In this document: in pieces, positions 28,423-52,250 of the stretch
How positions within the stretch are numbered: the first letter of the stretch is position 1
Layout of the letters: each line of letters starts with the position of its first letter
DNA from: Azospirillaceae bacterium
GTDB lineage: Bacteria > Pseudomonadota > Alphaproteobacteria > Azospirillales > Azospirillaceae
Direction: 5' to 3'
DNA: 64,000 bases
Assembly: GCA_031291675.1 (NCBI GenBank)
Contig: JARLIO010000030.1
Coordinates: 62,001 to 126,000 of the forward strand
The notes under the pieces: generated by a model
The model's input: the letters and a program-made list of their open reading frames with translations, nothing else
What the model was told of the DNA's origin: nothing
The model's database searches: none
Translations under genes and position numbers: made by a program

Positions 28423-31074
28423 TCAGGTGCCGGCGGCAATGCCTGACGGAACCGCTGGCGCGACCCGCGATGCGGCACCATCGCCCAGGCTTTTCTCAAT
28501 CTGATCGGCCGGGACGGGCCGGCCAAAAAGCCAGCCCTGGCCGTAGCGACAGTTCAGTTTGCGCAGGCAATGGGCGGCCTCCGGCGTTTCAATGCCTTCG
28601 GCGACAACGTCCATGTTCAGGGCGCTCGCCAGGTAGGTGATGATGCGCACGATTTCATTGCTGCCCTCATGGCGGTCGAGATCGAGGACGAAGGACTGGT
28701 CGATCTTGAGATTGTCGAAGGGAAAGCGTTGAAGATAGCTCAGCGATGAATAGCCGGTCCCGAAATCGTCGAGCGACAACAGGATGTTCTGGCTCTTGAG
28801 CGCCCGAATCACCCGTTCGCAGCGATTGGGGTCGTTCATCAGCACTGTTTCGGTGATTTCGAGCTTCAACGTCTGCGGTGTGATCCGCGTTGTCGCCAGG
28901 ACGTCGGCGACCCGTGACACCAGGTCGTCCTCGAGGAACTGCTTGCCGGACACGTTGATGCTCATGAACAGCGAGCGTTCGTGATTGCGCTGCCATGACG
29001 CCAACTGGTGGCAGGCTTCGTTCAGGGCCCACCGTCCCATGGGCACGATCAGGCCGCTCTCCTCGGCCATCGGAATGAAATCGCTGGGGGCAACCAGGCC
29101 GCGCTCGGGGTGTTGCCAGCGCATCAGCGCCTCGAACCCCGCGATCACGCCGGTCGCCAGGGCGACAATCGGCTGATAATAAAGCCGCAACTGCCCCGCA
29201 TCGATGGCGGTGCGCAGATCCGCCTCGGTACGCAATTGCCGGAGGGCCTGCAGATGCAGCGCGGGATCAAAGACCTCAACCCGGTTGCGACCCGACGATT
29301 TGGCGCGGTACAGGGCCAGGCTGGCGTCACGCAGCAGATCCTGGGCGCGCATGGCCGGCTCGCCCATCGTGATCCCGATCGACGCGGTCAGGACGATGTC
29401 GCGGTTTTCCAGCCTGAACGGCCACTGGGCGATGTCGCCAAAATGGCTGGCTTTGCGACGCGCCTCTGCGACGTCGGCGATGTCCTCAAGCAGGATCGCA
29501 AATTCGTCAGCCGACAGCCGGGCGACGGTGTCGCCGATATCGCGGTTCTGTTCGAACCGGTTGCCGATCAGGAGCAGAACTTCGTCGCCCGCCATCGGTC
29601 CCAGACTGTCATTGACGGTCTTGAAACGATCAAGATCGAGAAACAGCACCGCAAAGCGGGCACCGGTGCGCCGCTGGCGCTCCAGCGCACGACCGATCCG
29701 ATCGAGAAACAGGGCGCGGTTGGGCAGGTTGGTCAGGCCGTCATGGAACGCGTCATGGATCAACTGCTGCTCGACGCGTTTGCGCGTGGTGATGTCGCTC
29801 ATCGATCCGGCGATGCGCCGCGCGACGCCCTCGGAATCCCGGATCGCGATGCCACGGACCATCATCCAGCGCAGGCCGCCGTCGGCATGGCGCATCCGGA
29901 ATTCGGCCTCGAGATGGGCGCTGCCACCGGACAGATGCAGCTCGAGCGCCGCACGAAAGCCGGGAAAATCGACGGTGTCGACGCGATCCAGCCATTCCTC
30001 GGGGCTGGTGCCGATGTCGTCGCCCTGGTATCCCAGCATTTGCTTCCAGCGCGGCGAGTAATAGACCCGACGATCGGCGATGTTCCAGTCCCAGATGCCG
30101 TCATTGGCGCCGCGAACGGCCAGGGCATAGCGCTCTTCGCTGATCCGGAGCTGCTCTTCGGTCTGCTTGCGCTCCGTGATGTCGGTCTGCGATCCGACCA
30201 GACGGACCGGTTCCCCGGCGCCATCGAGGACGGCCGTGCCGCGGCACAACATCCAGCGCCAGCTGTCCTTGGCGTCGCGGACACGGTATTCGATCTGGAA
30301 CGGCCGCCCACCGGCACCGACCTGAGCCTCCAGCGTGGCTTGCAGCCAGATCAGATCCTCCGGGTGCACCCGCTCCAGCCACTCCTCCGGGGTGTTGCCG
30401 ACCGTGGCCTCGGCGAGATGGAGCATGGCCTTCCAACGCGTCGAGTAGTGGATCTGGTCGGTGCGGAGGTCCCAATCGAACAGGCCGTCATAGAGCGTCT
30501 CGGAAACCAGGGCGTAGCGCTGCTCGGAGCGCCGCAGAGTCTCGATGGCCTGTTGGGGGTCGGAGATATCGCAGAGCCAGCCCACCAGCCGGATCGGCAT
30601 GCCACCGGGGCCGATCCGGGCGAGACCGAAGCAGCGCAACCAGTGCCAGGAGTCCGCGTCGTCATGGCGTGCCCGGATCTCAAGGCAAAAAGGGTGCTCG
30701 CGCCGCGACCGCGTGTCACCCGGGCGGTCATGCATCACCGGGGGGGGATCGAGCAGGGCGCGAAAGATCGCCCGGTCGTCGATATGGAGTCGATCAAACC
30801 ACGCCTGGCCCGACAGAATGCCGCCTTCGCTGCGCAAACCAAGAAGCGCGCGAAACCGAGCCGAACCGTCGAGGCGATCGCGAAGCAGATCCCACTGCCA
30901 ATTGCCGTCACGCCCCGTGGCTTCCGACCAGGGGGACGGTCCCATCCCGGCAACACCCGCCGATTCCGTCACGGGGTTGGGGATTGCCGGCCCCTTTCCG
31001 AGCGGCGCAGATCGGTTTCGATCCGGCGTCGGCTGATGTCGACGGGTGATGACCAGACGGCGCTCCCCGGACAA
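28423..31074 (-). CDS. PAS-PAS-PAS-GGDEF-EAL signalling protein
   Basis: This 883-residue c-di-GMP protein has three PAS-like domains (about residues 55-165, 185-310, 315-435), a GGDEF domain (440-600) and an EAL domain (620-865). The cyclase motif reads RLSADEF instead of GGDEF (codons near 29500-29517), so synthase activity is probably lost. The EAL part looks intact: GFEALMRW, KLEITETVLM, LDDFGTGYSSLSYL, LKIDQSFV, EGIET. I therefore expect a phosphodiesterase tuned by PAS input. No membrane segment is seen. A TTG start (31074) with GAGG upstream is the best choice; an ATG 43 codons in is possible. It is convergent with era. Confidence 0.9.
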   Translation of the reverse strand: MSGERRLVITRRHQPTPDRNRSAPLGKGPAIPNPVTESAGVAGMGPSPWSEATGRDGNWQWDLLRDRLDGSARFRALLGLRSEGGILSGQAWFDRLHIDDRAIFRALLDPPPVMHDRPGDTRSRREHPFCLEIRARHDDADSWHWLRCFGLARIGPGGMPIRLVGWLCDISDPQQAIETLRRSEQRYALVSETLYDGLFDWDLRTDQIHYSTRWKAMLHLAEATVGNTPEEWLERVHPEDLIWLQATLEAQVGAGGRPFQIEYRVRDAKDSWRWMLCRGTAVLDGAGEPVRLVGSQTDITERKQTEEQLRISEERYALAVRGANDGIWDWNIADRRVYYSPRWKQMLGYQGDDIGTSPEEWLDRVDTVDFPGFRAALELHLSGGSAHLEAEFRMRHADGGLRWMMVRGIAIRDSEGVARRIAGSMSDITTRKRVEQQLIHDAFHDGLTNLPNRALFLDRIGRALERQRRTGARFAVLFLDLDRFKTVNDSLGPMAGDEVLLLIGNRFEQNRDIGDTVARLSADEFAILLEDIADVAEARRKASHFGDIAQWPFRLENRDIVLTASIGITMGEPAMRAQDLLRDASLALYRAKSSGRNRVEVFDPALHLQALRQLRTEADLRTAIDAGQLRLYYQPIVALATGVIAGFEALMRWQHPERGLVAPSDFIPMAEESGLIVPMGRWALNEACHQLASWQRNHERSLFMSINVSGKQFLEDDLVSRVADVLATTRITPQTLKLEITETVLMNDPNRCERVIRALKSQNILLSLDDFGTGYSSLSYLQRFPFDNLKIDQSFVLDLDRHEGSNEIVRIITYLASALNMDVVAEGIETPEAAHCLRKLNCRYGQGWLFGRPVPADQIEKSLGDGAASRVAPAVPSGIAAGT

Positions 31075-36413: not shown

Positions 36414-36826
36414 TCGGTTCTGGAGAAACACCGGTGCCGGCGTTGGGACGGGGTGCCGAACTCATGAATCCTCGAGGTGGGTTCATTCCAAAATCGATTC
36501 AGATGTGCGTTTTTCTACTATTCGGTTCGCCCGGTGCGATCGGGTGCCCCGCCACGCCGCACGGGAAACAGAATGATTGAGCGGCGGGTGATGCAGTCTA
36601 ATCATTCTCAAAATTTGTAATAAAATATGGGATTGTTTATTTCAATATTCCGGACTTGTTTCGCGCTGTCTTCACCTTTTTTTCATGAACCTACCCCTAA
36701 GTTTGTTGCAGGCAGCGAAAGCGATTCCCTTGGCGTCTGTCGGAACCGGGCGAGTCCCGGGCCTTCCGCGGGCCGGGTCCCCATTGCGACGGCTCCTATT
36801 TCGACAGGATGAGGGAAGGTGAAACC
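36414..36826. other. AT-rich intergenic region before the chemotaxis operon
   Basis: This 413-bp gap is notably AT-rich between about 36500 and 36700, as expected for the promoter of the long che operon. CTAAGTTT followed ten bases later by GCGAAAG (about 36697-36720) loosely resembles a sigma28 promoter, but the match is poor. No gene is supported. Confidence 0.45.
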
Positions 36827-37183
36827 ATGACGGCACTGAGTGCTTCGACGGCCCGCCTGGTGTTCGATGGCGATCAGACCATCCGGGATGTTGAAACGGC
36901 GCGTGCCCGGCTGCTTGATGCGTTGGCCGCACATGCGGTGGTTGAAATTAACTTCGACGACGCAACGACGATTGACGTCAGCATGATCCAACTGATCCTG
37001 GCCGCCCGCAACAGTGCGCAGCGGCGGGGCCGGACCCTGATCCTGAGCCACCCTGCCCATGGCGTGCTGCGCGATAGCCTGACGCGCGGCGGGTTTATTC
37101 CTGCGGCTACCGACCGCCCGGTTCCGGGTGCGGTCGCGGCGCCGCCCAATGACGTTTTCTGGTCCAAAGGAGCGACCGCGTGA
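36827..37183 (+). CDS. STAS-domain protein of the chemotaxis operon
   Basis: This 118-residue single-domain protein has the anti-sigma-antagonist (STAS) pattern: LVFDGDQTIRDVETARARLLDAL, then VEINFDDATTIDVSMIQLILAARNSAQRRG, with Asp-Val-Ser at the usual Ser phosphorylation point, and a C-terminal helix. STAS proteins occur at the head of several alphaproteobacterial che operons; their job there is not clear. ATG 36827 has AAGGTGA upstream, better than ATG 36809. The TGA overlaps the cheY ATG by one base. Confidence 0.82.
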   Translation: MTALSASTARLVFDGDQTIRDVETARARLLDALAAHAVVEINFDDATTIDVSMIQLILAARNSAQRRGRTLILSHPAHGVLRDSLTRGGFIPAATDRPVPGAVAAPPNDVFWSKGATA

Positions 37184-37551
37184 TGAGCAAGACAGTCCTT
37201 ACCGTCGATGACTCGGCAAGCATGCGCCAAATGGTCAAGTTCACACTCGCGAGCGCCGGCTATCTGGTGATCGAGGCCGGGAACGGTGTCGAGGGCCTGA
37301 GCCGCGCACGCGAAAAAGCCGTCGACGTCGTCGTGACCGACCTGAATATGCCGGTGATGAACGGCCTCGACATGATCCGCGAGCTGCGCAAGCTGCCGGC
37401 TTACAAAGGCGTGCCGATCATCTTCCTGACCACGGAATCGGATGCGGCGATCAAACAGCAGGCCCGTGCGGCCGGTGCGACCGGCTGGATCACCAAGCCG
37501 TTCCAGCAGGAGCAGATCGTGGCCGTCGTCAAAAAGGTCCTGGGTGCATGA
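37183..37551 (+). CDS. cheY: Chemotaxis response regulator CheY
   Basis: This 122-residue single receiver domain shows acidic residues in VLTVDDSAS, the phospho-acceptor Asp53 in VVVTDLNMPVMNG, the Thr in IFLTTE and the Lys in WITKPF. Phosphorylated CheY binds the flagellar switch or acts as a phosphate sink. AAGGAG lies upstream. GTG 37180 would add one residue with slightly better spacing. Its end overlaps cheA by four bases (ATGA). Confidence 0.95.
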   Translation: MSKTVLTVDDSASMRQMVKFTLASAGYLVIEAGNGVEGLSRAREKAVDVVVTDLNMPVMNGLDMIRELRKLPAYKGVPIIFLTTESDAAIKQQARAAGATGWITKPFQQEQIVAVVKKVLGA

Positions 37552-39656
37552 GCGGCGTGGATCCTGCCGAGACCTTTCGCCAGGAGGCGCAGGAACTTCT
37601 CGATCAGCTGGAACACGCCCTGCTCGATCTCGAGCACAGTCCCGGCGATGCCGAACTGATCGATAGCGCGTTTCGGGCCCTGCACACCATCAAGGGGTCG
37701 GGCGCGATGTTCGGCTACGAGCGCGCGGCCGGCTTTACCCACCATGTCGAAAACGCCTTCGACCGGGTGCGCAAGGGCGACGTCGCCCCGACTCGGGAGC
37801 TGATCAGCCTGGCCCTGATCGCCAAGGACCATATTCGGCTTTTGATTGAAACCCCGGAAAACGTGGCGTCCGATGACGAAACCGAGGCGACGATTCTGCG
37901 TGACCTCGATGTGGTGATGCGTCCCGGGGCGGCGCCGGCCCCTGGAGCGGCGGGGCTGGAGCCCGAGCCCCGGTCCTGGCGCATCCAGTTCCGGCTGCCG
38001 GCCGGGGCGATGGCCTCCGGGACCAATCCGCTGTTGCTGCTGGACGAATTGCGCGGTCTCGGCAACGCCACCATCGTCGCGCAAACGGGCGCGATCCCCG
38101 AGTTGGAGGAGCTCGATCCCGCGGAATGCTATATCGGCTGGGATGTTGTGCTGTCGACCACCGAGTCGCGCGACATGATCGAACAGGTGTTCATGTTCAT
38201 CATGGACGATATGGACCTGTCGATCATGCCGATCGCGTCGGGCGCCGGGACCGATCGTCTTGGTGAAATCCTGGTTGATCGGGGCGATGTTGCCCGCGAG
38301 GCGGTCGATGCCGCGCTGATGGCGCAGCAGCAGGAGAGCCGCACCGATCGGGTTGGCCTGACGGTAAAGCCTGAGCGGCTCGGTGCGTTGCTGGTCAAAT
38401 CCGGGGCTGTCACCGAGGAGGGTGTTGCTTCGGCCCTGGCCGAGCAGCAGCACGTTCGCACGGAGGCGCGTGCGACCCGGACCGTTGACAGCATCCGTGT
38501 TCCGGCGGAGCGGTTGGATGAGCTGATGGAACGCGTCGGCGAGTTGGTGATCGCCCAATCGCGTCTCAAGGAGATTGTGGCGCGCAGCACCGACCCGCTG
38601 GTTCAGTCGGTTGCCGAGGAAATCGAGCGCTTGGCTCTGGAGCTGCGCGACACCACGATGAATGTCCGCATGGTGCCGATCGGTTCGCTGTTCAGCCGGT
38701 TCCGCCGTCTGATCCATGACCTGTCCCGGGATCTCGGCAAGGAAGTTGCCCTGAAGACGGTCGGTGAAGAGACCGAACTCGACAAGACCGTGATCGAGCG
38801 TCTGAATGATCCGCTGGTCCATCTGATCCGCAATTCGATCGACCATGGCCTCGAACAACCCGACGACCGGGCCGCCGCCGGCAAGTCGCGGCAAGGGCAG
38901 ATCACGCTGACGGCGCAACATGCCGGGGGCGAGGTTCTGGTCATGATCGACGATGATGGACGCGGGCTCGATCGCGAGCGCATTCGGGCGCGGGCCGAGG
39001 AGCAGGGCCTGGTCGTGGCCGGCGCCAAGCTCTCGGACAGTGATCTGTTCGGCGTGCTGTTTGAACCCGGTTTTTCCACGGCGCGGGAGGTGACCAGCGT
39101 TTCGGGTCGTGGCGTCGGCATGGATGTGGTCAAGCGCACGATCCAGGCGTTGCGCGGCACCATCGATATCGCCAGCACGCCCGGCGCGGGCACCCGGATC
39201 ACGCTGCGTCTGCCTTTGACCCTCGCGATCATTGATGGGTTGCTGGTGCGGATCGGGCAGGGGCGCTACGTCATCCCGCTCTCCGCCGTCGAGGAATGTG
39301 TCGAGCTGGGGGCCGATGACGACAAGCGGTCGCGCGGTCGCAGCTTCCTCAACATTCGCGGTGAGCTGGTGCCGTTCCTGCGCCTGCGTGAAATGTTCAA
39401 GGTGACGACACCGCCCGATCGCTTCCAGAAGGTCGTGATCGTGTCCTCGGGTGACATGCGGGTGGGCATGGTTGTGGACCAGGTGATTGGCGACCATCAG
39501 ACGGTCATCAAGTCGCTGTCCAAGCTCCATGCCGACGTCAGGACCTTTTCCGGCGCCACAATCCTCGGCGATGGCACGGTGGCCCTGATTCTCGACGTGA
39601 TGCATCTCGTCAGTTTCGGGCAGGAACTCGAAAAGCAACTAAAGATAGCTGGATAG
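37548..39656 (+). CDS. cheA: Chemotaxis histidine kinase CheA with MshEN-like motifs
   Basis: This 702-residue kinase receives MCP signals and phosphorylates CheY and CheB. The Hpt domain carries His46 in [13 protein letters not shown]. Residues about 140-230 form a CheA-specific domain. The linker (237-301) holds two 25-residue motifs, [12 protein letters not shown]...AQQ and [12 protein letters not shown]...AEQQ, that match the MshEN c-di-GMP-binding pattern. The dimerisation helix ([20 protein letters not shown]), the ATPase ([22 protein letters not shown]) and the CheW-like regulatory domain follow. It is translationally coupled to cheY. Confidence 0.95.
38256..38450 (+). other. Tandem MshEN-like motifs encoded in cheA
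   Basis: Residues 237-261 and 277-301 of CheA each fit R-L-G-x-x-L-V-x-x-G-x-V-x-x-x-x-V-x-x-A-L-x-x-Q-Q, the two-copy motif of MshEN (T2SS/T4P ATPase N-terminal) domains that bind c-di-GMP. The copies are 40 residues apart, a somewhat longer spacing than in MshE. Binding here is inference. Confidence 0.55.
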
Positions 39657-39763
39657 GGTCTGCGTCGCCTCAAGGCGGCAAAACTGTCTGGAACAGCACA
39701 ATGCGCGGCGGGACTGCCCCCGCATCGGATAAGAACGGTCGAAGGCCACAGGGAGTTATGGCG

Positions 39764-41971
39764 ATGCGCCTTACCATCAAGTTGAAGCTGGGCGTCGTGT
39801 TCTTTGTCATTATCGTGATGTCGATGATCTCTGCGTTCATTGCGATCAATGGTTTGGGCCAGCTCAATCAGGTGATCGCCGAATTCGTCGGTGTTTCGAC
39901 ACAACGGGTCTCGTCCGCTCTGAAATTGCCGACGACGATCTATCTGTTGCAGCGCGAGGAAAAGAACTTCCTGCTCGCCAGTACGCCCGAGGATATCGAT
40001 CGTTTCGACAAGGCCATTCTGGCCCGGCGGGATGATTTCCGTAACGAGTTGGCGCAGTACCGCAAGGTTGCGGATGAGGATGGCCAGAAACTTCTGGCCC
40101 AGGTGGAGGCCAAGTTCACCGAATTCGTGACGGCGCAGGACAAGGTTCGCGAGCTTGGCCGGGTTCACTCGAACGAGCGTGGTACTGATCTGCTCATGGG
40201 TCCCGGCGTCGTTGTGACCAATGCCGCGATGGATGCGCTGAAACCATTGCTGGACCGGGTGGAAAACAGCCGCGGTGCGAGCGAAGCACAGGTGATGATC
40301 GCCGAACAGATCCGTCAGATGACCTCGCAATGGGGGCTGATGCGCGTGGCCCTTTTCAGGTCGTTTCTGACGGCGGACGATGCGGCCACCGAGGCGGCGC
40401 TGGCGCCGATTCCTGCCCTGTTCGATGATATTCACCGCTTGCAGGATACGGTCCGATCGCTGCTGACGACGGATGAGGATCAGCGCGCCTTCGCTCTGTT
40501 CCTGGACAAATTCACCCAATACACCAAGGTCTTCGAGGAGGCCGAGGCGTGGAGCCGCAAGAATACCGAAGCCAAGGCGCTGGCCCTGTCGGTGGGCGAG
40601 GTGCGGACCATCGCGGGCCAGTTGAGCCAGTTGGCCGGCGACATGGTGGCCCATGCCGAGAAATCGATGGCGGATGCCAGTGTCGAGGCCGATCACACCT
40701 ATGGCTCCTTGCGGACACTGCTGATTGCGGCGGTCGCGGCCTCGCTGCTGATTGCGCTCGCCGCCGGCACCTGGATTTCGCTGAATATCGCCCGGGGATT
40801 GGCCCGCGCGGTTGGTCTTGCCGATGCCGTCGCCTTGGGTGATTTGAGCCAGACGGTGGCAATGAAGACCAATGATGAAATCAAGGATGTCATCACCGCC
40901 CTCAACCAGATGACGGCCAATCTGCGGGCGACCGCCGCCGTCGCCGATGCGATCGCTGCGGGTGACCTGACCGTCGATGTTCAGCGTCTGTCCGACAAGG
41001 ACACGCTGGGGATGGCGTTGGAGCGGATGAGCGAAAAGCTGCGGACCATTGTTGCCGAAGCGATGGCCGCTGCGGAAAATGTCTCCGCCGGCAGCCAGGA
41101 ACTCTCGGCGAGCGCCCAGCAGCTGTCGCAGGGCGCCACCGAACAGGCGTCGTCGACCGAGGAGGCCTCGGCCTCGATGGAGCAGATGGCCGCCAATATC
41201 AAGCAGAACGCCGACAATGCCGCGCAGACCGAGCGGATTTCACGCCAGTCCTCGATCGACGCCCAGGCCAGCGGTGAGGCCGTCGGCCGGTCGGTCGAAG
41301 CGATGCGGATCATTGCCGACAAAATCCTGATCGTGCAGGAGATCGCCCGCCAGACCGACCTGCTGGCCCTGAACGCCGCGATCGAGGCGGCGCGGGCCGG
41401 GGAGCATGGCAAAGGCTTCGCCGTTGTCGCCTCCGAGGTGCGCAAGCTGGCGGAACGCAGCCAGACCGCGGCCACCGAAATCAGCGCGCTGTCGACCCAG
41501 ACGGTCGGTGTCGCGCAGGAAGCCGGGGCGATGCTGGTCAAGCTGGTCCCTGACATCAAGAAGACGGCCTCGCTGATTTCCGAGATCAGCGCCGCCTGCC
41601 GCGAGCAGGATATCGGCGCCGATCAGATCAATCAGGCGATCCAGCAACTCGACAAGGTGACCCAGCAGAACGCCAGCGCCTCGGAGCAGATGTCGGCGAC
41701 CTCGGAGGAGCTGGCGGCCCAGTCCGAACAGTTGCAGGCCGGGATCTCGTATTTCCGGATCGCTCAGCCGGCGCATGGGACGGTGCGGCCGGGGCACGGG
41801 GGCGCCGCCAAGGCGGTCGAACCAGCCAAGGCCCGTGCGCGCGCCGTCACCCGACCCGTCGCGGCGAAAAGGGCGGGGCTCAATGGCAGCGCCCCGCGCA
41901 CCAACGGTTTTGCCCTGAACCTCACCAACTCCGGCGCCGATGCCCATGACGATGATTTCGAGAGGCTATAA
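39764..41971 (+). CDS. Methyl-accepting chemotaxis protein 1
   Basis: This 735-residue transmembrane receptor has a membrane helix at residues about 8-30, a large helical periplasmic sensor (about 31-325), a second membrane helix ([19 protein letters not shown]), two successive HAMP units and a cytoplasmic signalling hairpin with [20 protein letters not shown]. The last 80 residues are a flexible Ala/Pro/Arg-rich tail ending in DFERL. ATG 39764 is chosen because GGGAG stands eight bases upstream. The signalling half is nearly identical at DNA level to the second MCP of this operon. The ligand is unknown. Confidence 0.92.
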
Positions 41972-42061
41972 GAGATAGGTTGCCGCTTTTGCGGCCTGCG
42001 ATCGTGTTCGAGACCGGGACTTTCACAGGCCGTTCCGGCATACCGTGTAAGGATACGAGTG

Positions 42062-42592
42062 ATGTCGATGACACAAATAATTGAACGTCAGAGCAACGGG
42101 ATCACCCGGATCGGCGTGCCCGAGGCCGGGGCGCCGGCGATCGAGGTCCTGACGGTGCGGTCTCATGACGAGATCTTTGCCCTGGAAATCAAATATGTCC
42201 GCGAGATTCTGGATTTGATCCCGATTACCGAGGTTCCGGGCAGCCAACCCTTTGTCAACGGGCTGATCAATGTCCGGGGCAAGGTTGTGCCCCTGGCCGA
42301 TCTTCGGCTCAAATTCGGCATGGAACAGACGCCGCCATCGATCGACGCCCGGATTGTCGTCGTCGAGATCGATCGCGACGGGGTGCCGACGACGATCGGA
42401 ATCCGGGCCGACAAGGTCTATGAGGTCACCGAGCTGGCGGCGGCGACGCTGGAGGAAACCCCGCGCATTGGCATGCGTTGGCGTCGCGAATTCATTCGCT
42501 GCATCGGCAAGCGCGGCAGCGATTTCATCATTGTGCTTGATCTTGAGCGGATTTTCCTCGGCGATGCCGAGGCCGAACATGAGAGGGTTTGA
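42062..42592 (+). CDS. cheW: Chemotaxis coupling protein CheW (first copy)
   Basis: This 176-residue adaptor docks CheA to the receptors. The CheW fold is clear: FALEIKYVREILDL, PITEVPGSQPFVNGLINVRGKVVPLADLR, then VDxVxEV-like ADKVYEVTEL and a final LDLERIF. ATG 42062 has AAGGA seven bases upstream. It lies between the first MCP and the second CheW gene. Two different CheW proteins in one operon suggest distinct array positions or partners, which is inference. Confidence 0.94.
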   Translation: MSMTQIIERQSNGITRIGVPEAGAPAIEVLTVRSHDEIFALEIKYVREILDLIPITEVPGSQPFVNGLINVRGKVVPLADLRLKFGMEQTPPSIDARIVVVEIDRDGVPTTIGIRADKVYEVTELAAATLEETPRIGMRWRREFIRCIGKRGSDFIIVLDLERIFLGDAEAEHERV

Positions 42593-42595
42593 ACC

Positions 42596-43159
42596 ATGGC
42601 TGGTTCCGTCACGACGATCGAGGATGGCACGCCTTTCGTCACCCTGGGCATCGATCGCGAGGTCTTTGCCGTGCCGGTGGCCGCGGTGCTGGAAATCCTG
42701 GACATGCAATCGGTGTGTCGCATTCCTGATGCCCCAGCCTATCTGATCGGTCTGATCTCGGTCCGGGAACGTGGGGTTCCGGTGATCGATCTGAGGGTCC
42801 GGTTGGGCCTGCCGGCGGTGCCGGCCACCGGGCACACCCGGATCCTGGTGCTCGATATGCCTTTGGCCGAGCGGAAATTGACCCTGGGTCTGGTCGTCGA
42901 CCGGGTGTTCGAGGTCACGCCGCTTGACAGCCGCTCGATCGAACCACCGCCGGATATCGGCATTCGTTGGCGTTCCGACTACATCGATGGCGTCGGGCGT
43001 CGCGGCGACAAGTTCGTCATTATTTTGAATCTGGCACGGTTGTTTTCGTCGAGCGATGTTCCGCTGGCTGGCACCGGTGTCGACGGTGAGAAGGGTGCGG
43101 CACTGTTTTCGGCTGCCGCTGTTTCGAGCCGTACCACGGAGGCCGTGTCATGCGCGTGA
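42596..43159 (+). CDS. Chemotaxis coupling protein CheW (second copy)
   Basis: This 187-residue CheW-like protein has [45 protein letters not shown], with the common NxRG reading SVRERG, then [11 protein letters not shown] and LNLARLF. It differs clearly from the first copy (roughly one-third identical by eye) and has a 30-residue C-terminal extension. It starts three bases after the first cheW stop, and its last ten bases overlap the second MCP gene. Confidence 0.92.
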
Positions 43160-45147
43160 CGATCAAAGCCAAACTGACGCTGGCCTTCGGTGTCATCATC
43201 CTGCTGTCCGGGCTGACCGCGGCACTGGGCATCGCCAATCTGGCGTCGCTGAATGGCGCGATGGGCGACATGGTCCAGGGCCCGGTTCAGCGCTCCGAGA
43301 TGGCCCAGGAAATGTTCAGCGACCTGCTGACGGCGATCCGTGCCGAGAAGAACATGTTGCTGTCGGACACGCCCGAACAGCTGGCGCGCTATGACGGCGA
43401 GCTGCTGGCGGCGCGCCGGGCGCTGGAAACGCTGCACGACCAGTACCAACCGATGGCGACGGCCGAGGGCAAGGTAAAACTGGCCGCGTTTTTCGCCAGC
43501 TGGCAGGAGGCGATCGCGGCGCAGGAGCGGGAACGCGAGCTGCTGAAGCACGGCGACAATGCCACAGCCAAGGGGATCTCGCTGGGCGACGTTCGTCAGC
43601 ATGTCAATGAGGCGCAAAAGCCGCTGCTGGAGATGGTCGCCTTGAACAAGACGATCGTCGGCCAGGCGATCAATGACGCGAACGCGCAATACCGCAGCGC
43701 CCGCTGGCTGCTGATCGCCGCGGTCGCGGCGTCGCTGCTGATCGCGCTGGGCGCTGGAATCTGGATTCTGACGACGATCAGCCGCGGGCTGCGCAAGGCG
43801 GTCACGCTGGCCGATGCTGTCGCCCTGGGTGACCTCGATCAACAGGTCGCGGTGACAACCAATGATGAAATCAAGGACATGGTCGACGCCCTCAACCGGA
43901 TGACGACCAATCTACGGGCTACGGCGGCGATCGCCGATACCATCGCCGATGGCGATTTGTCGGTCGAGACCCGGCGTTTGTCCGATCGGGATACGCTGGG
44001 GATTTCGTTGGAGCGGATGACCGGCAATCTGCGGGAAACCGCGGCCGTCGCCAACGCGATCGCGAATGGTGATCTGACCGTTGAGGCCCGGCGCCGCAGC
44101 GACAAGGACACGCTGGGCGTTGCCCTGGAACAGATGAGCCACAAGTTGCGGACGATCGTCGCCGATGCCATGGCGGCGGCGGACAATGTCTCTGCCGGCA
44201 GCCAGGAACTTTCGGCCAGCGCCCAGCAACTGTCGCAGGGTGCCACCGAACAGGCGTCGTCGACCGAGGAGGCCTCGGCCTCGATGGAGGAGATGGCCGC
44301 CAACATCAAGCAGAACGCCGACAACGCCGCCCAGACCGAGCGGATTTCGCGTCAGTCCTCGATCGATGCCCAGGCCAGTGGTGAGGCTGTCGTTCGGGCC
44401 GTCGATGCGATGCGAATCATCGCCGACAAGATCACGATCGTCCAGGAAATCGCCCGCCAGACCGACCTGCTGGCCCTGAATGCCGCGATCGAGGCGGCGC
44501 GGGCCGGGGAGCATGGCAAAGGCTTCGCGGTTGTCGCCTCCGAGGTGCGTAAGCTGGCGGAGCGCAGCCAGGTTGCGGCCGCCGAGATCGGCACGCTGTC
44601 GTCGCAAACGGTGGGCGTGGCGCAGGAAGCCGGGGCGATGCTGGTCAAGCTGGTCCCTGACATCAAGAAGACGGCCTCGCTGATTGCCGAGATCAGCGCC
44701 GCCTGCCGGGAGCAGGATATCGGCGCCGATCAGATCAATCAGGCGATCCAGCAGCTTGACAAGGTGACCCAGCAGAACGCCAGCGCCTCGGAACAGATGT
44801 CGGCGACCTCGGAGGAGCTGGCGGCCCAGGCCGAGCAGTTGCAGGCCGGGATCTCTTATTTCCGGATCGATGCCGCGACGGTCGGACCGGACCGCGATGA
44901 GGGGCGGGCGCGCAAACCGGCGGCCGGGGTCGCGGCCGGACTAGCGGCCGGACTCGCGGCCGGACTCGCGATTGTTCCGCGCCGCGGCGCCGTCGCGGCG
45001 ACACCGTCGGCGGGCCGGCAAAAGCCCGCAGCCGCGCCCCGGGCGATCCCCGCCAAACGGGCGGCAGCCGCGACGGGCAAGGGCTTCGCCCTGGACCTGC
45101 ACGGCAATCCTGGTGATGACGGCGACGCCGATTTCGAAAGGTTTTAG
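43150..45147 (+). CDS. Methyl-accepting chemotaxis protein 2
   Basis: This 665-residue receptor has a membrane helix (about 8-30), a compact four-helix-bundle-type periplasmic sensor (about 31-185), a second membrane helix ([21 protein letters not shown]), three HAMP-type units (one more than the first MCP), the signalling hairpin ([20 protein letters not shown]) and a low-complexity tail with [11 protein letters not shown] repeats. It ends in DFERF, a close match to the aromatic-x-x-aromatic pentapeptide that tethers CheR and CheB. GGAGG precedes the ATG, which overlaps the second cheW. cheR begins three bases after its stop. Confidence 0.93.
44932..44967 (+). repeat. 12-bp tandem repeat in the second MCP gene
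   Basis: Three in-frame copies of a GCGGCCGGACTC-like unit encode repeated Ala-Ala-Gly-Leu in the tail of the receptor. It is a flexible linker prone to slippage. Confidence 0.6.
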
Positions 45148-45150
45148 CCC

Positions 45151-46035
45151 GTGCCCGACGGATCGATGACAAGTGCGGCAATGCCGACGCTCAGCAGTGG
45201 TTTCGACCATCTTCGCCCGCGCGATTTCGACCGCCTGTCGAAATTCATCCATGGTTACTGTGGCATCAAATTGCCGCCGTCCAAGCGGACGATGCTCGAG
45301 GGCCGGCTGCGCCGTCGCTTGCGCGAAACCGGCCTGCCGGATCTTGCGACATATTGCAATTTCCTGTTCGAGAAGGGTGGCCTTGACGAGGAGTTGGTTC
45401 ACCTCATCGATGTCGTGACCACCAACAAGACCGAGTTCTTTCGCGAGCCGAGCCATTTTCAGTTCCTGGCCCAGACGGCGGTGCCGCGTCTGCTGGCCGC
45501 GCGCCGGACCGGCAGCGTGCGTCCGCTCAAGCTGTGGAGCGCCGCGTGCTCCAACGGCGCCGAGCCCTACACGCTGGCGATGGTGATGGCCGAGTTGGGG
45601 CTGCAACGGCCGGAGCTTCAGTCCACGATCATCGCGACCGATATCTGCACCGAGGTTCTGGAAGCCGCGATCCTGGGCATCTACCCGGCGGCAATGGCCG
45701 AGTCGATCCCGTTGGCGCTGCGCCAGCGCTATATGATGAAATCAAAGATTTCGGCTCGTGCGCAGGTGCGCGTCGTTCCGGGCCTGCGTAGACAGGTACA
45801 GTTCGGCCGTCTCAACTTGATGGATGAAGTCTATCCGGTTGGGCGGGATATCGACGTCATCTTTTGCCGTAACATCCTGATTTATTTTGATCGGCCGACC
45901 CAGGAATTGGTGTTGCAGAATCTTTGCAATTGCCTCAATCCTGGGGGCTATCTGTTCCTCGGGCATTCCGAGTCTCTGGCGGATTTCGTTTTGCCCCTGG
46001 CCCCGGTTGGCAACACGATCTTTCGACGGCTTTGA
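45151..46035 (+). CDS. cheR: Chemotaxis protein methyltransferase CheR
   Basis: This 294-residue enzyme methylates receptor glutamates using S-adenosylmethionine. The N-terminal helical domain holds FIHGYCGIKLPPSKRTMLEGRLRRRL. The catalytic domain has TNKTEFFREPSHF, LWSAACSNGAEPYTLAM (SAM-binding; the usual Glu-Glu-Pro reads Ala-Glu-Pro), ATDICTEVLEAA and IFCRNILIYFD. The start is GTG 45151 with AAAGG upstream; ATG 45166 is possible. It lies between the second MCP and cheB. Confidence 0.95.
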   Translation: MPDGSMTSAAMPTLSSGFDHLRPRDFDRLSKFIHGYCGIKLPPSKRTMLEGRLRRRLRETGLPDLATYCNFLFEKGGLDEELVHLIDVVTTNKTEFFREPSHFQFLAQTAVPRLLAARRTGSVRPLKLWSAACSNGAEPYTLAMVMAELGLQRPELQSTIIATDICTEVLEAAILGIYPAAMAESIPLALRQRYMMKSKISARAQVRVVPGLRRQVQFGRLNLMDEVYPVGRDIDVIFCRNILIYFDRPTQELVLQNLCNCLNPGGYLFLGHSESLADFVLPLAPVGNTIFRRL

Positions 46036-46059
46036 GCTTGCGGCGGTATTGGGATTATT

Positions 46060-47160
46060 ATGGTGGAAAAAATCCAAGTCCTGATCGTCGATGATTCCGC
46101 GTCGGTTCGTCAGACGATGTCGGACATTCTGGGGGCGGATCCGGAGATCACGGTGATGGGGACGGCGTCGGACCCGTTCGTGGCCGCGCGCCGCATCCAG
46201 AAACAGATTCCCGACGTCATTACCCTTGATGTTGAAATGCCGCGGATGGACGGCATCACCTTCCTGCGCAAGCTGATGGCGCAAAAGCCGATCCCTGTCG
46301 TGATCTGTTCGTCCCTGACCGAGGCCGGCAGCGAAACCCTGATGCAGGCGCTGGAAAGTGGCGCCGTCGACGTCATCGTCAAGCCAAGGATCGATTGTGC
46401 CCAGTTCCTGATGGAATCCAAGGTTCAGATTTGTGACACCGTCAAGGCGGCGGCGCGGGCGCGGCTGTCGCGTCGCCCGATCATGAAGGTGGACAGCGGA
46501 CGGCACGGTTTGTCCACCGGGCCAGCCCTGAAACTGAGTGCCGATGCGATGCTGCCGCGACCGACCGGCGCCGCGGCCATGGCCCGGACCACCGAAACCG
46601 TGATCTGCGTCGGCGCCTCGACCGGCGGTACCGAGTCGCTGCGCGTGGTCCTGGAAGCGCTGCCGCCCGATTGTCCCGGCATCGTCATCGTGCAGCACAT
46701 GCCCGAGAAATTCACCGAGGCCTTCGCGCGCCGGCTCGACGGCTTGTGCCAGGTCAGCGTCAAGGAGGCGGCCGATGGTGACACCGTGTTGCGCGGTCAT
46801 GTCCTGATTGCCCCGGGCAACAAGCATACTTTGCTGCAACGAAGTGGCGCCCGCTACTATGTTTCGGTCAAGGACGGCCCGCTGGTGACCCGCCATCGCC
46901 CCTCGGTTGACGTGTTGTTCCGCTCGGCCGCGCAATATGCCGGGGCCAATGCCGTCGGGATCATCATGACCGGGATGGGAGACGATGGCGCCAACGGCCT
47001 GTTCGAGATGAAACAGGCCGGGGCGTTCACCATCGCCCAGGACGAAACCTCCTGCGTCGTGTTCGGGATGCCCAAGGAGGCGATTGCCCGCGGCGCGGTT
47101 GACAAGGTGGTGTCGCTCGACGCCCTTTCCGCCGAAATTATCCGGGCCGGGCGTCGATGA
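46060..47160 (+). CDS. cheB: Receptor methylesterase/deamidase CheB
   Basis: This 366-residue protein reverses CheR methylation for adaptation. The receiver domain has [10 protein letters not shown], the phospho-acceptor Asp57 in [12 protein letters not shown] and the Lys in VIVKP. The esterase domain has the catalytic serine in [12 protein letters not shown], the histidine in [12 protein letters not shown] and the aspartate in [14 protein letters not shown]. All three catalytic residues appear present. The ATG overlaps nothing upstream; its own stop overlaps cheD (ATGA). Confidence 0.96.
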
Positions 47161-47657
47161 CGGATGTGTCCGTCCCGCCCTCGTTGCCACGGATCTTCTT
47201 GAGGCCGGAATCCATCTTTTGTTCGTCGACGCCGACGGTCGTCACGACGGTCCTCGGGTCCTGCGTCTCGATCTGCCTTTGGGACCGGGTGCTGCGCGTC
47301 GGCGGGATCAATCATTTCCTGTTGCCGCAAACGCTCCAGGAGGGCAGTCCGTTGCGCTATGGCGAGAGCTCGTGCGATCAACTGGTGCGGGACATGGTCG
47401 CGCTGGGATGCCGGGTCGACAGTTTGGAAGCCAAAGTGTTCGGTGGCGCTGCCGTGCTGTTCGGCCTGACCCCGGAGACCAGCGTCGGCACTCGCAATGT
47501 CGAGATCGCGTTGGCGCGCCTGCAATTTCACCGGATCCCGGTCCGGGCCCGTCGCACCGGCGGCGAGCGGGGCTTGTGGGTTCAACTGATCACCGACAGC
47601 TTTGACGTGCTGGTCCGCCCGGTCCAGACCCAGGTTCAGCCCCCTGCAATCTTGTAG
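47157..47657 (+). CDS. cheD: Chemoreceptor glutamine deamidase CheD
   Basis: This 166-residue enzyme converts receptor glutamines to glutamates. It has [13 protein letters not shown] with the catalytic Cys, GGINHFLLP with the catalytic His, the Thr in VVTTVLGSC, and [12 protein letters not shown] and [10 protein letters not shown] typical of the family. It is the last gene of the che operon and overlaps cheB by four bases. The presence of CheD together with CheB and CheR suggests that receptors are made with Gln at some adaptation sites. Confidence 0.94.
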
Positions 47658-49505: not shown

Positions 49506-50087
49506 ATGACCGGGCGGGGGCTGCCTTTGAGGGCGTGGTTCGCCTGTGTTGGACGCTTTTGGCGCGCCACCGGGGCGGTATCGATCCTCGAGTTTAGCCT
49601 GATCGGGGTCCCGTTCCTGATGCTGCTGCTGGGTGTCGTTGAAATGAGCTATATGCTGAAGACACAGGCAGATCTGGATTATGCGACGCAGACTGCGGCG
49701 CGGCAGATTATGACCGGGACGGTCCAAGCCAATTCGCCCACAGTCACCCCGGCTCAGTTCGCTACTCAATATATTTGCCCGAATCTTCCGTCAACCTTTA
49801 CCTGTGGAAATGTGATTGTTGTGATGTCGACGATCGTCAACGCGACGGGCAAAGATTTTTCATCCCTTATCAATGCGAGCCATTCCGGCGTGACGAACAA
49901 TTCAAATTCGACAACGATCTGTCTAGGAACAAGCACGGCGTATGTTTTCATTCAAGTATACTATAAGATACAGGGAACAATTTTTGCGTTTACTGGGATT
50001 GCTGATCTAACATTGGGTTCATCTCTGGCGTTCAGGAACGAGCCATTTCATTCTACGAAGTATTCACCGCCAAGCGTGTGCTCATGA
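49506..50087 (+). CDS. TadE-like pseudopilin/pilus assembly protein
   Basis: This 193-residue protein has one N-terminal membrane helix in the TadE style: Gly-Ala-Val-Ser-Ile-Leu-Glu-Phe-Ser-Leu (residues about 22-31) and then LIGVPFLMLLLGVVEMSYML. The extracytoplasmic remainder is Thr/Ser/Asn-rich with paired Cys. The glutamate five residues into the helix is the usual TadE/pseudopilin mark. Base composition is more AT-rich than the genome average. Its stop overlaps the next gene (ATGA). Tad ATPase, secretin and Flp pilin genes are not in the window. Confidence 0.78.
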   Translation: MTGRGLPLRAWFACVGRFWRATGAVSILEFSLIGVPFLMLLLGVVEMSYMLKTQADLDYATQTAARQIMTGTVQANSPTVTPAQFATQYICPNLPSTFTCGNVIVVMSTIVNATGKDFSSLINASHSGVTNNSNSTTICLGTSTAYVFIQVYYKIQGTIFAFTGIADLTLGSSLAFRNEPFHSTKYSPPSVCS

Positions 50088-50815
50088 TTATGCTGTTTTC
50101 CCCTCGCTTTCGCCGCTTGATTCGCGACAGAAACGGCAATGTCTCCATCGAGGTCGCATTCGTCTTTCCAATTCTGGTTCTGATGCTGGGCGGCGTGTAT
50201 CAGCTTTGGCAGGCGCTCAACACAAGCCGACAGGTGCAAATCGTGGCCGACTCGATTGGCCAGATGTTGAGCCAGAATCTGACCAATACACTCGCGTCGA
50301 ACGATCTCCTCTTCGCCGCTCGGGCGACGCCGGTGCTGTTTCCCCGGGTGCTGGCCGACACGGCCAGCAAGACGGGGACGGATCCCTGGATGCAGGGAAT
50401 CAAATTGACGATCAGCAGTGTCGTATTTTCGCAGAGCGTGACACCGACCAAAGCCAATCCATCCCCGCCCTACGACATCGCCCAGGTTGTGTGGAGTTTC
50501 GGCTCCGTCCCGCGTCCCTGCGCCACAGCCCCGGTTACAACGGTTGGCGGGGCGGTGATCAAGAAAGTCAGCGATACCGCGACGCCATCGTCGACTACTC
50601 TCCCTACGGACGTGTATCAGGCCGGTTCGGCGATCGTAACCGATGTCGAATACGAATTTAAACCATCGCTTTGGGGCAATGTCTTGCCTTTGGATATCAC
50701 ATTCAAAAGGTCAAGTTATTTTCAGCCGCGCTACCTTGTCTCGACGGACTGGATGCGTTATTCGCCCGACACAAGCGACGCCTATACCAAAGTCTGCACG
50801 CAAGGCGGATTCTGA
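50084..50815 (+). CDS. Second TadE/TadF-like membrane-anchored protein
   Basis: This 243-residue protein has one N-terminal membrane helix after RNGNVSIEVAFVFPILVLMLGGVYQLW, again with Glu near the helix start as in TadE/TadF pseudopilins. The rest is a Ser/Thr/Pro-rich extracytoplasmic domain containing Cys at PRPCATAP and the C-terminal VCTQGGF. ATG 50084 overlaps the previous stop, so translation is coupled. ATG 50090 and GTG 50078 are alternative starts. Only four bases separate its stop from the TadG-like gene. Confidence 0.75.
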   Translation: MIMLFSPRFRRLIRDRNGNVSIEVAFVFPILVLMLGGVYQLWQALNTSRQVQIVADSIGQMLSQNLTNTLASNDLLFAARATPVLFPRVLADTASKTGTDPWMQGIKLTISSVVFSQSVTPTKANPSPPYDIAQVVWSFGSVPRPCATAPVTTVGGAVIKKVSDTATPSSTTLPTDVYQAGSAIVTDVEYEFKPSLWGNVLPLDITFKRSSYFQPRYLVSTDWMRYSPDTSDAYTKVCTQGGF

Positions 50816-50819
50816 TCCC

Positions 50820-52250
50820 ATGATGAAACGACATTGCCGCTTTGGTCGTCTGCGTTTCTTCGCTCAGGATCGGTCCGGTGCCGTTGTGCTGATCGTGGCT
50901 CTTTTGCTGCTTCCGCTGATGGGCTGCATCGGTCTTGCCCTCGATTATGAGAATGCGATGGTCTACAAGGGCAAACTTGATCGCGCGGCCGATGCTGCGG
51001 CGCTTCAGACCCTGGTGACGGCACAATCTTACGTTCTTGCCAATCAGAATCAGCCGTTCTCCCAGGCCACACAAACCGCAACAGACGCCGGCAAAGCCGC
51101 GTTCAACGCCAATGCCGGGTCGCTCCTCCCGGCGGTGCAGGGCGCACCCACGATCGCACTCACGATGACCGGCCAGACACTGACGACGCTGTCGATGACG
51201 GCGACAGCGAGCTATTGGGCTCAGATGCCGACCACTCTCGGGCGGCTGTTCCATGTCAATTTGTTCAACCTGTCCGGTTCCGCGTCGTCGTCGATGAACA
51301 TGGCCACCTATGTCAACTATTATGTCCTGGTCGATGTTTCGGGGTCGATGGGCCTGCCGATTTCGGCGGACGGTCAAAGCCGGCTCGCTGCGATCAATCC
51401 TGACGATTTAAGTTCGTACCCGAGCGGCTGCGTGTTTGCCTGCCATTTTAGTGGCAACTCGGGTTATAGCCTGTCGCGAACCAATAAGGGCAAGACCGCG
51501 ATCAGCGGTGTTTGCCCGGCACCGGATGCCTTGGCAGCGCCGAGCCAATGGAAGTGCATCCAGTTGCGCCTCGACGCCGTTGCAAGTGCCCTGAAGAATT
51601 TCATGACGAGCGCCATCGCGGTCAACAATGCGGCTGGCCACGACCAGATTGGCGTCGGTCTGTTTCCCTTCATCGTGCATATGCAGAATTATCAGGCGAT
51701 TACGACGGATCTTGTGAGCGCGCAAACTGCCGCTGACGGGATTCCAAATCTCCTCGACACCGGAGTTGGGAGTGGGGCGCTGGGCTCGGGCGGGACGCAT
51801 TTCGACAATGCCTTCAGTGAGCTCAGCAAAATCATCCCGAACGATCCAGCAACCGGTAAAATCGGAACGGGTCTCAGTGCCCAGACGCCGGTTCCGATCG
51901 TATTTTTTATTACCGATGGCGCACAGGACAATCAAACCCAGAACAACGGCAGTTGGTCTGGAAGCAATCATGCCACAACAATATCCGCCTCGACCTGCAA
52001 AATACTAAGTAATAGAAATATTACCCTCTACATTCTCTATATTCCCTATGCGACGATCCAGAATCCGAACAGCAGCTTTGCTGGCAACGAGGATGGCTAT
52101 GCGAATGATAACATCAAAAATATTTACGGTGCCCTTCAGTCCTGTGCCAGCCCCGGTGACTTGTTTTCAGCCGACAGCTCGACGGATGTCAATGCCAAGA
52201 TCCAGGCGATGTTTGCGCAGTCGCTGCAATCGATTCGCCTGGTGCAATGA
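50820..52250 (+). CDS. TadG-like protein with von Willebrand A domain
   Basis: This 476-residue protein has an N-terminal membrane helix (AVVLIVALLLLPLMGCIGLALD, the TadG-type leader following DRSG) and a Tad-like helical segment with RAADAAALQ. A vWA domain begins near residue 160, where the metal-site motif VDVSGSMG is intact. The vWA domain is interrupted by a Cys-containing insert (SGCVFACHFSGNSG). TadG proteins support Tad pilus biogenesis or surface attachment. ATG 50820 is followed by ATG 50823. The 3' half is AT-rich. Confidence 0.85.
   Translation: MMKRHCRFGRLRFFAQDRSGAVVLIVALLLLPLMGCIGLALDYENAMVYKGKLDRAADAAALQTLVTAQSYVLANQNQPFSQATQTATDAGKAAFNANAGSLLPAVQGAPTIALTMTGQTLTTLSMTATASYWAQMPTTLGRLFHVNLFNLSGSASSSMNMATYVNYYVLVDVSGSMGLPISADGQSRLAAINPDDLSSYPSGCVFACHFSGNSGYSLSRTNKGKTAISGVCPAPDALAAPSQWKCIQLRLDAVASALKNFMTSAIAVNNAAGHDQIGVGLFPFIVHMQNYQAITTDLVSAQTAADGIPNLLDTGVGSGALGSGGTHFDNAFSELSKIIPNDPATGKIGTGLSAQTPVPIVFFITDGAQDNQTQNNGSWSGSNHATTISASTCKILSNRNITLYILYIPYATIQNPNSSFAGNEDGYANDNIKNIYGALQSCASPGDLFSADSSTDVNAKIQAMFAQSLQSIRLVQ

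Follow-up and report, generated by a model that had tools for sequence, protein, structure and literature searches.

The chemotaxis kinase CheA encoded in the window (the whole stretch of DNA analysed, 64,000 nucleotides from an Azospirillaceae bacterium) contains, in the linker between its P2-like and P3 domains, a module spanning residues 237-300. We describe it as a four-helix module of the MshEN_N type, which probably binds c-di-GMP and would provide chemotaxis with a second input. The evidence consists of the position of a tandem motif pair, its homology to c-di-GMP-binding domains of pilus ATPases, its predicted fold and the conservation of residues which contact the ligand in a known structure.

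Gene organization and domain layout

The gene lies in a chemotaxis cluster (36809-47657) with the order STAS - CheY - CheA - MCP - CheW - CheW - MCP - CheR - CheB - CheD. Pfam recognizes in its product, in the order expected for a CheA, the Hpt (residues 8-91), H-kinase_dim (P3, 314-372), HATPase_c (421-558) and CheW (564-688) domains. The relevant features are:

36809-37183, forward strand: protein with a STAS domain, encoded immediately upstream of cheY and cheA (Pfam STAS_2, 7.9e-10)
37180-37551, forward strand: CheY-type response regulator (Pfam Response_reg, 1.7e-28)
37548-39656, forward strand: cheA, 702 aa; P1 (Hpt) - P2-like - MshEN_N-like pair - P3 - P4 - P5, from Pfam and the translation
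37971-38234, forward strand: P2-like region, residues 142-229 approximately; modelled by AlphaFold2 as an alpha/beta part, with pLDDT values over 90 for the most part
38256-38327, forward strand: MshEN motif I, residues 237-260; strict pattern, profile homology, two helices in the models
38328-38375, forward strand: spacer between motif I and motif II, 16 residues
38376-38447, forward strand: MshEN motif II, residues 277-300; strict pattern, profile homology, two helices in the models
38487-38663, forward strand: P3 dimerisation domain, residues 314-372 (Pfam H-kinase_dim, 8.9e-14)
39701-47657, forward strand: rest of the chemotaxis cluster, namely MCP, CheW, CheW, MCP, CheR, CheB and CheD (Pfam)

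Pfam gives no P2 match for the P2-like region, and Foldseek finds for it weak matches, mostly PII-like, with a best E of 2e-3. TadE- and TadG-like Flp pilus genes are found near the cluster, at 50078-52250 of the window, the TadE match being just under the curated cut-off.

The motif pair in the linker

A strict motif pattern, leaving position 11 free and permitting L, V or I at position 17, matches exactly two places in the 64-kb window (85,567 residues in six frames, from open stretches of at least 60 aa), both of them in the CheA linker. When the CheA protein was shuffled, not even one strict motif was produced in 200,000 trials. The first-pass annotation had noticed two such motifs at 38256-38450, and they are indeed found there, as residues 237-260 and 277-300: the ends agree, since inclusion of the second Q of each QQ moves the motif ends to 38330 (I) and 38450 (II). 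Their placement, proposed to be after the P2-like region and before the dimerisation helix, is likewise confirmed, H-kinase_dim beginning at residue 314.

Both motifs contain RLG, G10, L21 and Q24. Measured against the published consensus, which asks for L, V or I at position 11 and for L at position 17, each of them agrees at nine of the 11 specified positions: position 11 is D in motif I and A in motif II, and position 17 is V, not L, in both. The spacer of 16 residues also departs from the 5-residue spacer of MshEN.

Sequence homology to MshEN-type domains

A single-sequence phmmer search of the linker against PDB retrieved the MshEN-type domains of PilF (1.2e-7) and PilB (1.5e-3), with MshE at a non-significant E of 1.2. 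A profile of 29 CheA linkers, built from 28 pair-bearing near relatives and the window CheA, matched PilF at 3.4e-29, PilB at 1.5e-11 and MshE (5htl) at 1.1e-7, pilus-ATPase chains of the MshEN/GSPII kind filling the best 14 of 16 rows. For the reverse direction, 30 loci were fetched by Pfam PF05157, and the 12 with no ATPase ORF recognizable by pattern were dropped: 14 of the 18 recognized ATPases match the CheA linker profile with a full-sequence E of 4e-9 or lower, and four match it poorly.

Pfam PF05157, the model named MshEN, gave no hit with E<=1, neither in the window CheA nor in the 29 linkers, and none in the window's own genome either. In all six ATPases examined (assuming equal locus flanks), however, the PF05157 match starts just after the tandem motifs; this suggests that PF05157 models the C-subdomain and cannot see the motif module, which would account for its silence on the CheA linkers. 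The missing match was for this reason set aside as a refutation of MshEN homology. Weak matches to DUF4388 were found in 20 of the 29 linkers (best 2.4e-5), none in the window's. The profile check proposed together with the first-pass annotation has thus succeeded against PDB, where PilF, PilB and MshE are matched, and failed with the Pfam model, whose starting point explains the failure. Overall, homology of CheA residues 237-260 and 277-300 to the c-di-GMP-binding N-subdomain of MshEN/GSPII domains is supported.

Predicted fold

AlphaFold2, run on an alignment of 29 sequences, predicts four helices where the motifs lie in a P2-linker-P3 construct (mean pLDDT 88.1). A Foldseek search with this larger model gave mainly PII-like matches, which belong to the P2 part, and the 50 matches listed contain no MshEN chain; the linker was therefore modelled alone. 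The resulting model (mean pLDDT 79.3) has helices at positions 8-18, 23-42, 51-58 and 63-86. The four-helix bundle is present in the predicted model, and the structural matches are supportive, not decisive.

In PDB, Foldseek ranks c-di-GMP-bound MshE first for the linker model (5htl; probability 1.00, TMq 0.54, E 0.12) and PilF GSPII-A third; none of the 49 matches reaches E <= 0.001. VIA-align also places 5htl first (Z 8.6, with 33% identity and an rmsd of 2.9 A for 60 residues), followed by XpsE (Z 7.4) and Xanthomonas PilB (7.0), both MshEN-type, and then by the unrelated PurB (6.4). XpsE MshEN has been reported as a non-binder of c-di-GMP (PMC5013675), and the same is described for PilF GSPII-A, despite its near-consensus motif (PMC12002112). 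As these non-binders rank high, the fold supports kinship and says nothing on binding.

Distribution among CheA proteins

The motif pair is present in 28 of 80 near CheA relatives from GTDB genomes and the other 52 are devoid of the module; the 80 were selected for their closeness to the window CheA, and one of the seed peptides came from within the linker, so that the fraction is not a frequency among all CheAs. Scores of the linker profile are bimodal: the 28 pair-bearing relatives, which together with the window CheA had been used in building it, reach at least 58 bits, 12 same-family loci not used in building it score 46.5 to 53.4, and the others score at most 10.7 or do not match. A search of 59 genomes treated as relatives, that of the window among them, found a CheA at E<=1e-150 in 12; 10 of these have at least one pair-bearing CheA, and, leaving aside the window's own, 12 out of 15 loci carry the pair. 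The spacer is a single residue in these 12 same-family loci, the window's copy being 15 residues longer. Across 41 pair-bearing CheAs it ranges from 1 to 16 residues, and is 1 residue in 22.

In a FastTree kinase-core tree of 93 rows, the pair is found in Pseudomonadota, Thermodesulfobacteriota, Nitrospirota, Spirochaetota (one row) and in one Actinomycetota record, possibly a transfer or a mis-assignment. Length filters excluded loci L035, a fragment without the linker region, and L066 from both the display alignment and the tree, and L103 was left out of the tree. The pair label needs at least 15 changes on the tree, 10 of them forced by well supported branches, versus about 30 in shuffles. 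This distribution may be read as that of an ancient module lost many times over; on this unrooted tree, transfers would be compatible with it as well. In four relatives (L054, L057, L059 and L065; profile scores of at most 10.7 bits) the linkers contain what to the eye resembles decayed remnants of motif I only, as though the module were being lost.

In Alphaproteobacteria, 12 of 289 genomes match the linker profile at E<=1e-8 (for large genomes, part of the first-look candidates were scored), and the module therefore appears to be rare in this class. The 12 matches include two CheAs, the window's and a 731-aa CheA (L108, genome G077), seven proteins which by reading are something else, and three remaining loci (L110, L112 and L116). 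From their sequences, L111 and L117 resemble glycosyltransferases, L114 resembles an ATPase of the GspE/PilB type and L115 a P-loop kinase of the exopolysaccharide type; L118 is another protein, not a CheA. L109 and L113, each of ~360 aa, combine several MshEN-type motifs in tandem with a different part at the C-terminus.

Only tentatively, and with some doubt, do we extend these observations to the proposal that direct c-di-GMP gating of CheA is old and widespread, the MshEN_N module having existed early on, been lost or degraded often, and been overlooked because PF05157 covers only the half devoid of the binding motifs.

Ligand-contact positions and half-site variants

In the MshE structure, the ligand is contacted by positions 1, 2, 3, 17, 21 and 24 of each motif, the backbone amide of Gly3, together with that of the next residue, contacting guanine O6/N7 (PMC5013675). 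In the 41 pair-bearing CheAs, Gly3 is invariant in both motifs (41/41 each), Gln24 is found in 40 (motif I) and 41 (motif II) of them, and Leu21 in 37 for each motif. Position 1 is more variable: in motif I it is R in 28, L in 5, K in 4 and another residue in 4, in motif II P in 24, R in 13 and another residue in 4. R, K and L fall within the extended consensus; according to PMC11731258, Arg at this position is dispensable in PilF GSPII-B, and motif II of PilF GSPII-C has Pro there. GSPII-C is reported to bind c-di-GMP (PMC12002112).

Mean entropies, in bits for motif I and motif II, are 0.75 and 0.74 at contact positions, 0.77 and 1.27 at core positions and 2.32 and 2.28 elsewhere. Invariance (41/41 each) also extends to positions which are not contacts, namely Leu6 in motif I and Ala20 in motif II, so that conservation may be partly structural.

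A second sample was drawn with a P2-linker-P3 profile from 299 Pseudomonadota genomes, 54 of which had a match. Of the 60 matches listed, 10 end within the P2 part; the best 30, the window's own among them, were read, and the module is present in all 30 by selection. Gln24 of motif I is missing in 18 of the 29 loci other than the window's and kept in 11; the loss is due to a shortened second helix running straight into motif II in 17 cases and to replacement by H in one. The Gln of motif II is found by eye in 29 out of 29, and in 24 by a stricter pattern. By family label, Gln24 of motif I is kept in nine families and missing in seven. The loci with a shortened motif I devoid of Gln (L159, L161-L164, L166, L167 and L169-L178) constitute natural half-site variants.

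The module can thus persist without one ligand contact, which would fit either the loss of binding in some lineages or a structural or docking role. As to the condition set at first pass, that motif residues be conserved in orthologous CheAs, the contacts are kept where the module exists, as in the 41 CheAs, while 52 of 80 relatives have no module and 18 of 29 loci lack one Gln.

A possible c-di-GMP input to the kinase

The MshEN-like interpretation given in the first-pass annotation is upheld by the profile homology, the predicted four-helix fold and the conserved contact residues; beyond these and the position of the pair, we infer c-di-GMP input, including the binding itself, the sign of its effect and the coupling to P3. 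Most likely each protomer would bind one c-di-GMP, each motif holding one guanine, and the ligand would clamp the two helix pairs of the linker module. Binding might alter the freedom of P1 and P2 to reach P4 and CheY, as, in the AlphaFold2 model, seven residues separate the bundle's last helix (model positions 161-183, CheA 290-312) from the P3 helix that follows. Autophosphorylation or phosphotransfer would be tuned in this way, by a second input acting beside the receptors. Isolated MshEN_N (residues 1-62) is reported to bind at 0.35 uM without the C-subdomain (PMC5013675); a near-consensus motif need not bind, as illustrated by PilF GSPII-A (PMC12002112).

It is possible, albeit rather unlikely, that the module is a docking or spacing element derived from MshEN, in which the fold has been kept for protein binding or positioning and not as a nucleotide receptor. 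The 18 of 29 Pseudomonadota loci keeping the module without Gln24 of motif I would be consistent with such a role, as would the spacer lengths of 1 to 16 residues. There are also precedents for protein binding: a P2-P3 insert, the LID of Vibrio cholerae CheA, is bound by the localisation protein ParP (PMC7534058), and the titles of entries 7lkm and 7lkn describe the Xanthomonas PilB N-domain bound to a PilZ protein. Docking, however, does not predict conservation of exactly the polar contacts, and Gly3 and Gln24 are among the best conserved positions of the 41 CheAs (window included).

A preference of the module for a nucleotide other than c-di-GMP, for instance 3',3'-cGAMP, is improbable. MshEN does bind cGAMP, weakly (3.3 x 10^-4 M; PMC5013675), and position 11 and the spacer are unlike those of MshE; the guanine-contacting Gly3 is nevertheless kept, c-di-AMP is reported not to be bound by MshE (PMC5013675), and the 28 GGDEF matches of the genome speak for c-di-GMP. 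A chance repeat within an unstructured linker, as might be suggested by the lack of Pfam domains there and by the Pro/Ala-rich linkers found at the same place in many related CheAs, was rejected as practically negligible, given the shuffles (0/200,000), the profile homology to MshEN-type domains, the recurrence of the pair in CheA relatives of several phyla and the helices predicted with confidence.

Turnover of c-di-GMP and other candidate receptors

The c-di-GMP input to CheA which we favour would not lack a source of ligand, as the genome contains 28 GGDEF matches. One relevant protein is encoded in the window itself:

28423-31074, reverse strand: PAS-GGDEF-EAL protein (Pfam, motifs); GGDEF site LSADEF, EAL signature EALMR and DDFGTG

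It had been suggested at first pass that this protein could supply or remove the ligand. The GGDEF site is degenerate and the EAL signature is present, so that supply finds little support and removal is more likely, the protein being a candidate phosphodiesterase.

Elsewhere in the same genome (locus L105, contig C46, 1177-2340), a 387-aa protein carries N-terminal stretches that resemble MshEN motifs (profile E 3e-7). It reads like an exopolysaccharide-type P-loop kinase, with a Pfam ParA match below cut-off, and is a second candidate c-di-GMP receptor.

Significance and comparison with known systems

The second messenger c-di-GMP reaches chemotaxis through adaptors, such as a PilZ adaptor. 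Should CheA itself read c-di-GMP, the decision to swim or settle would be integrated inside the kinase, and natural controls would be provided by those relatives that have no module or a single damaged half-site. A blind spot may also be involved, as surveys based on PF05157 may miss this module of roughly 64 residues.

Wang et al. (2016) name CheA and CheX, among others, as partners of MshEN, in a single sentence referring to their Supplementary Table 4 (PMC5013675); the pairing with CheA is the same domain combination as in the window. The combination is thus already known; its breadth across CheAs was not found described in the parts of the literature available. A survey of 13,673 CheA sequences by Berry et al. 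(2023) lists P2/CheY-binding, receiver and CheC/CheX as auxiliary domains, and its main text nowhere mentions MshE, T2SS, GspE or c-di-GMP (PMC10782961). That survey used HMMER, followed by HHpred only for undetected regions of more than 100 residues (PMC10782961); its silence may be due to the module being shorter than 100 residues once P2 is assigned. A literature search of titles and abstract starts retrieved no experimental report of a CheA binding c-di-GMP via such a module.

Among characterized domains, MshEN of Vibrio cholerae MshE (5htl), the best structural match of the linker model, shares with it the two 24-residue motifs, the four-helix N-subdomain and the RLG, G, L and Q residues. 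It differs in the spacer (16 residues in the window versus 5), in V17 replacing L17 and in the non-hydrophobic position 11; in addition, the CheA has no match to MshEN_C (PF05157), and the host is a kinase, not an ATPase. Thermus PilF GSPII-B/GSPII-C provide the best PDB sequence match of the linker, and Pro at position 1 of motif II in GSPII-C is shared by 24 of the 41 CheAs, whereas spacing, C-subdomain and host protein are different.

The LID of Vibrio cholerae CheA is likewise an extra module between P2 and P3, and shows that an insert at this place can carry a function of its own; the likeness is one of position, LID being bound by ParP (PMC7534058). CckA, a histidine kinase for which a c-di-GMP-binding CA domain is listed, resembles the window CheA in the proposed direct action of c-di-GMP on a histidine kinase, exerted there on the catalytic domain and here, as we propose, on a separate linker module (PMC7288161).
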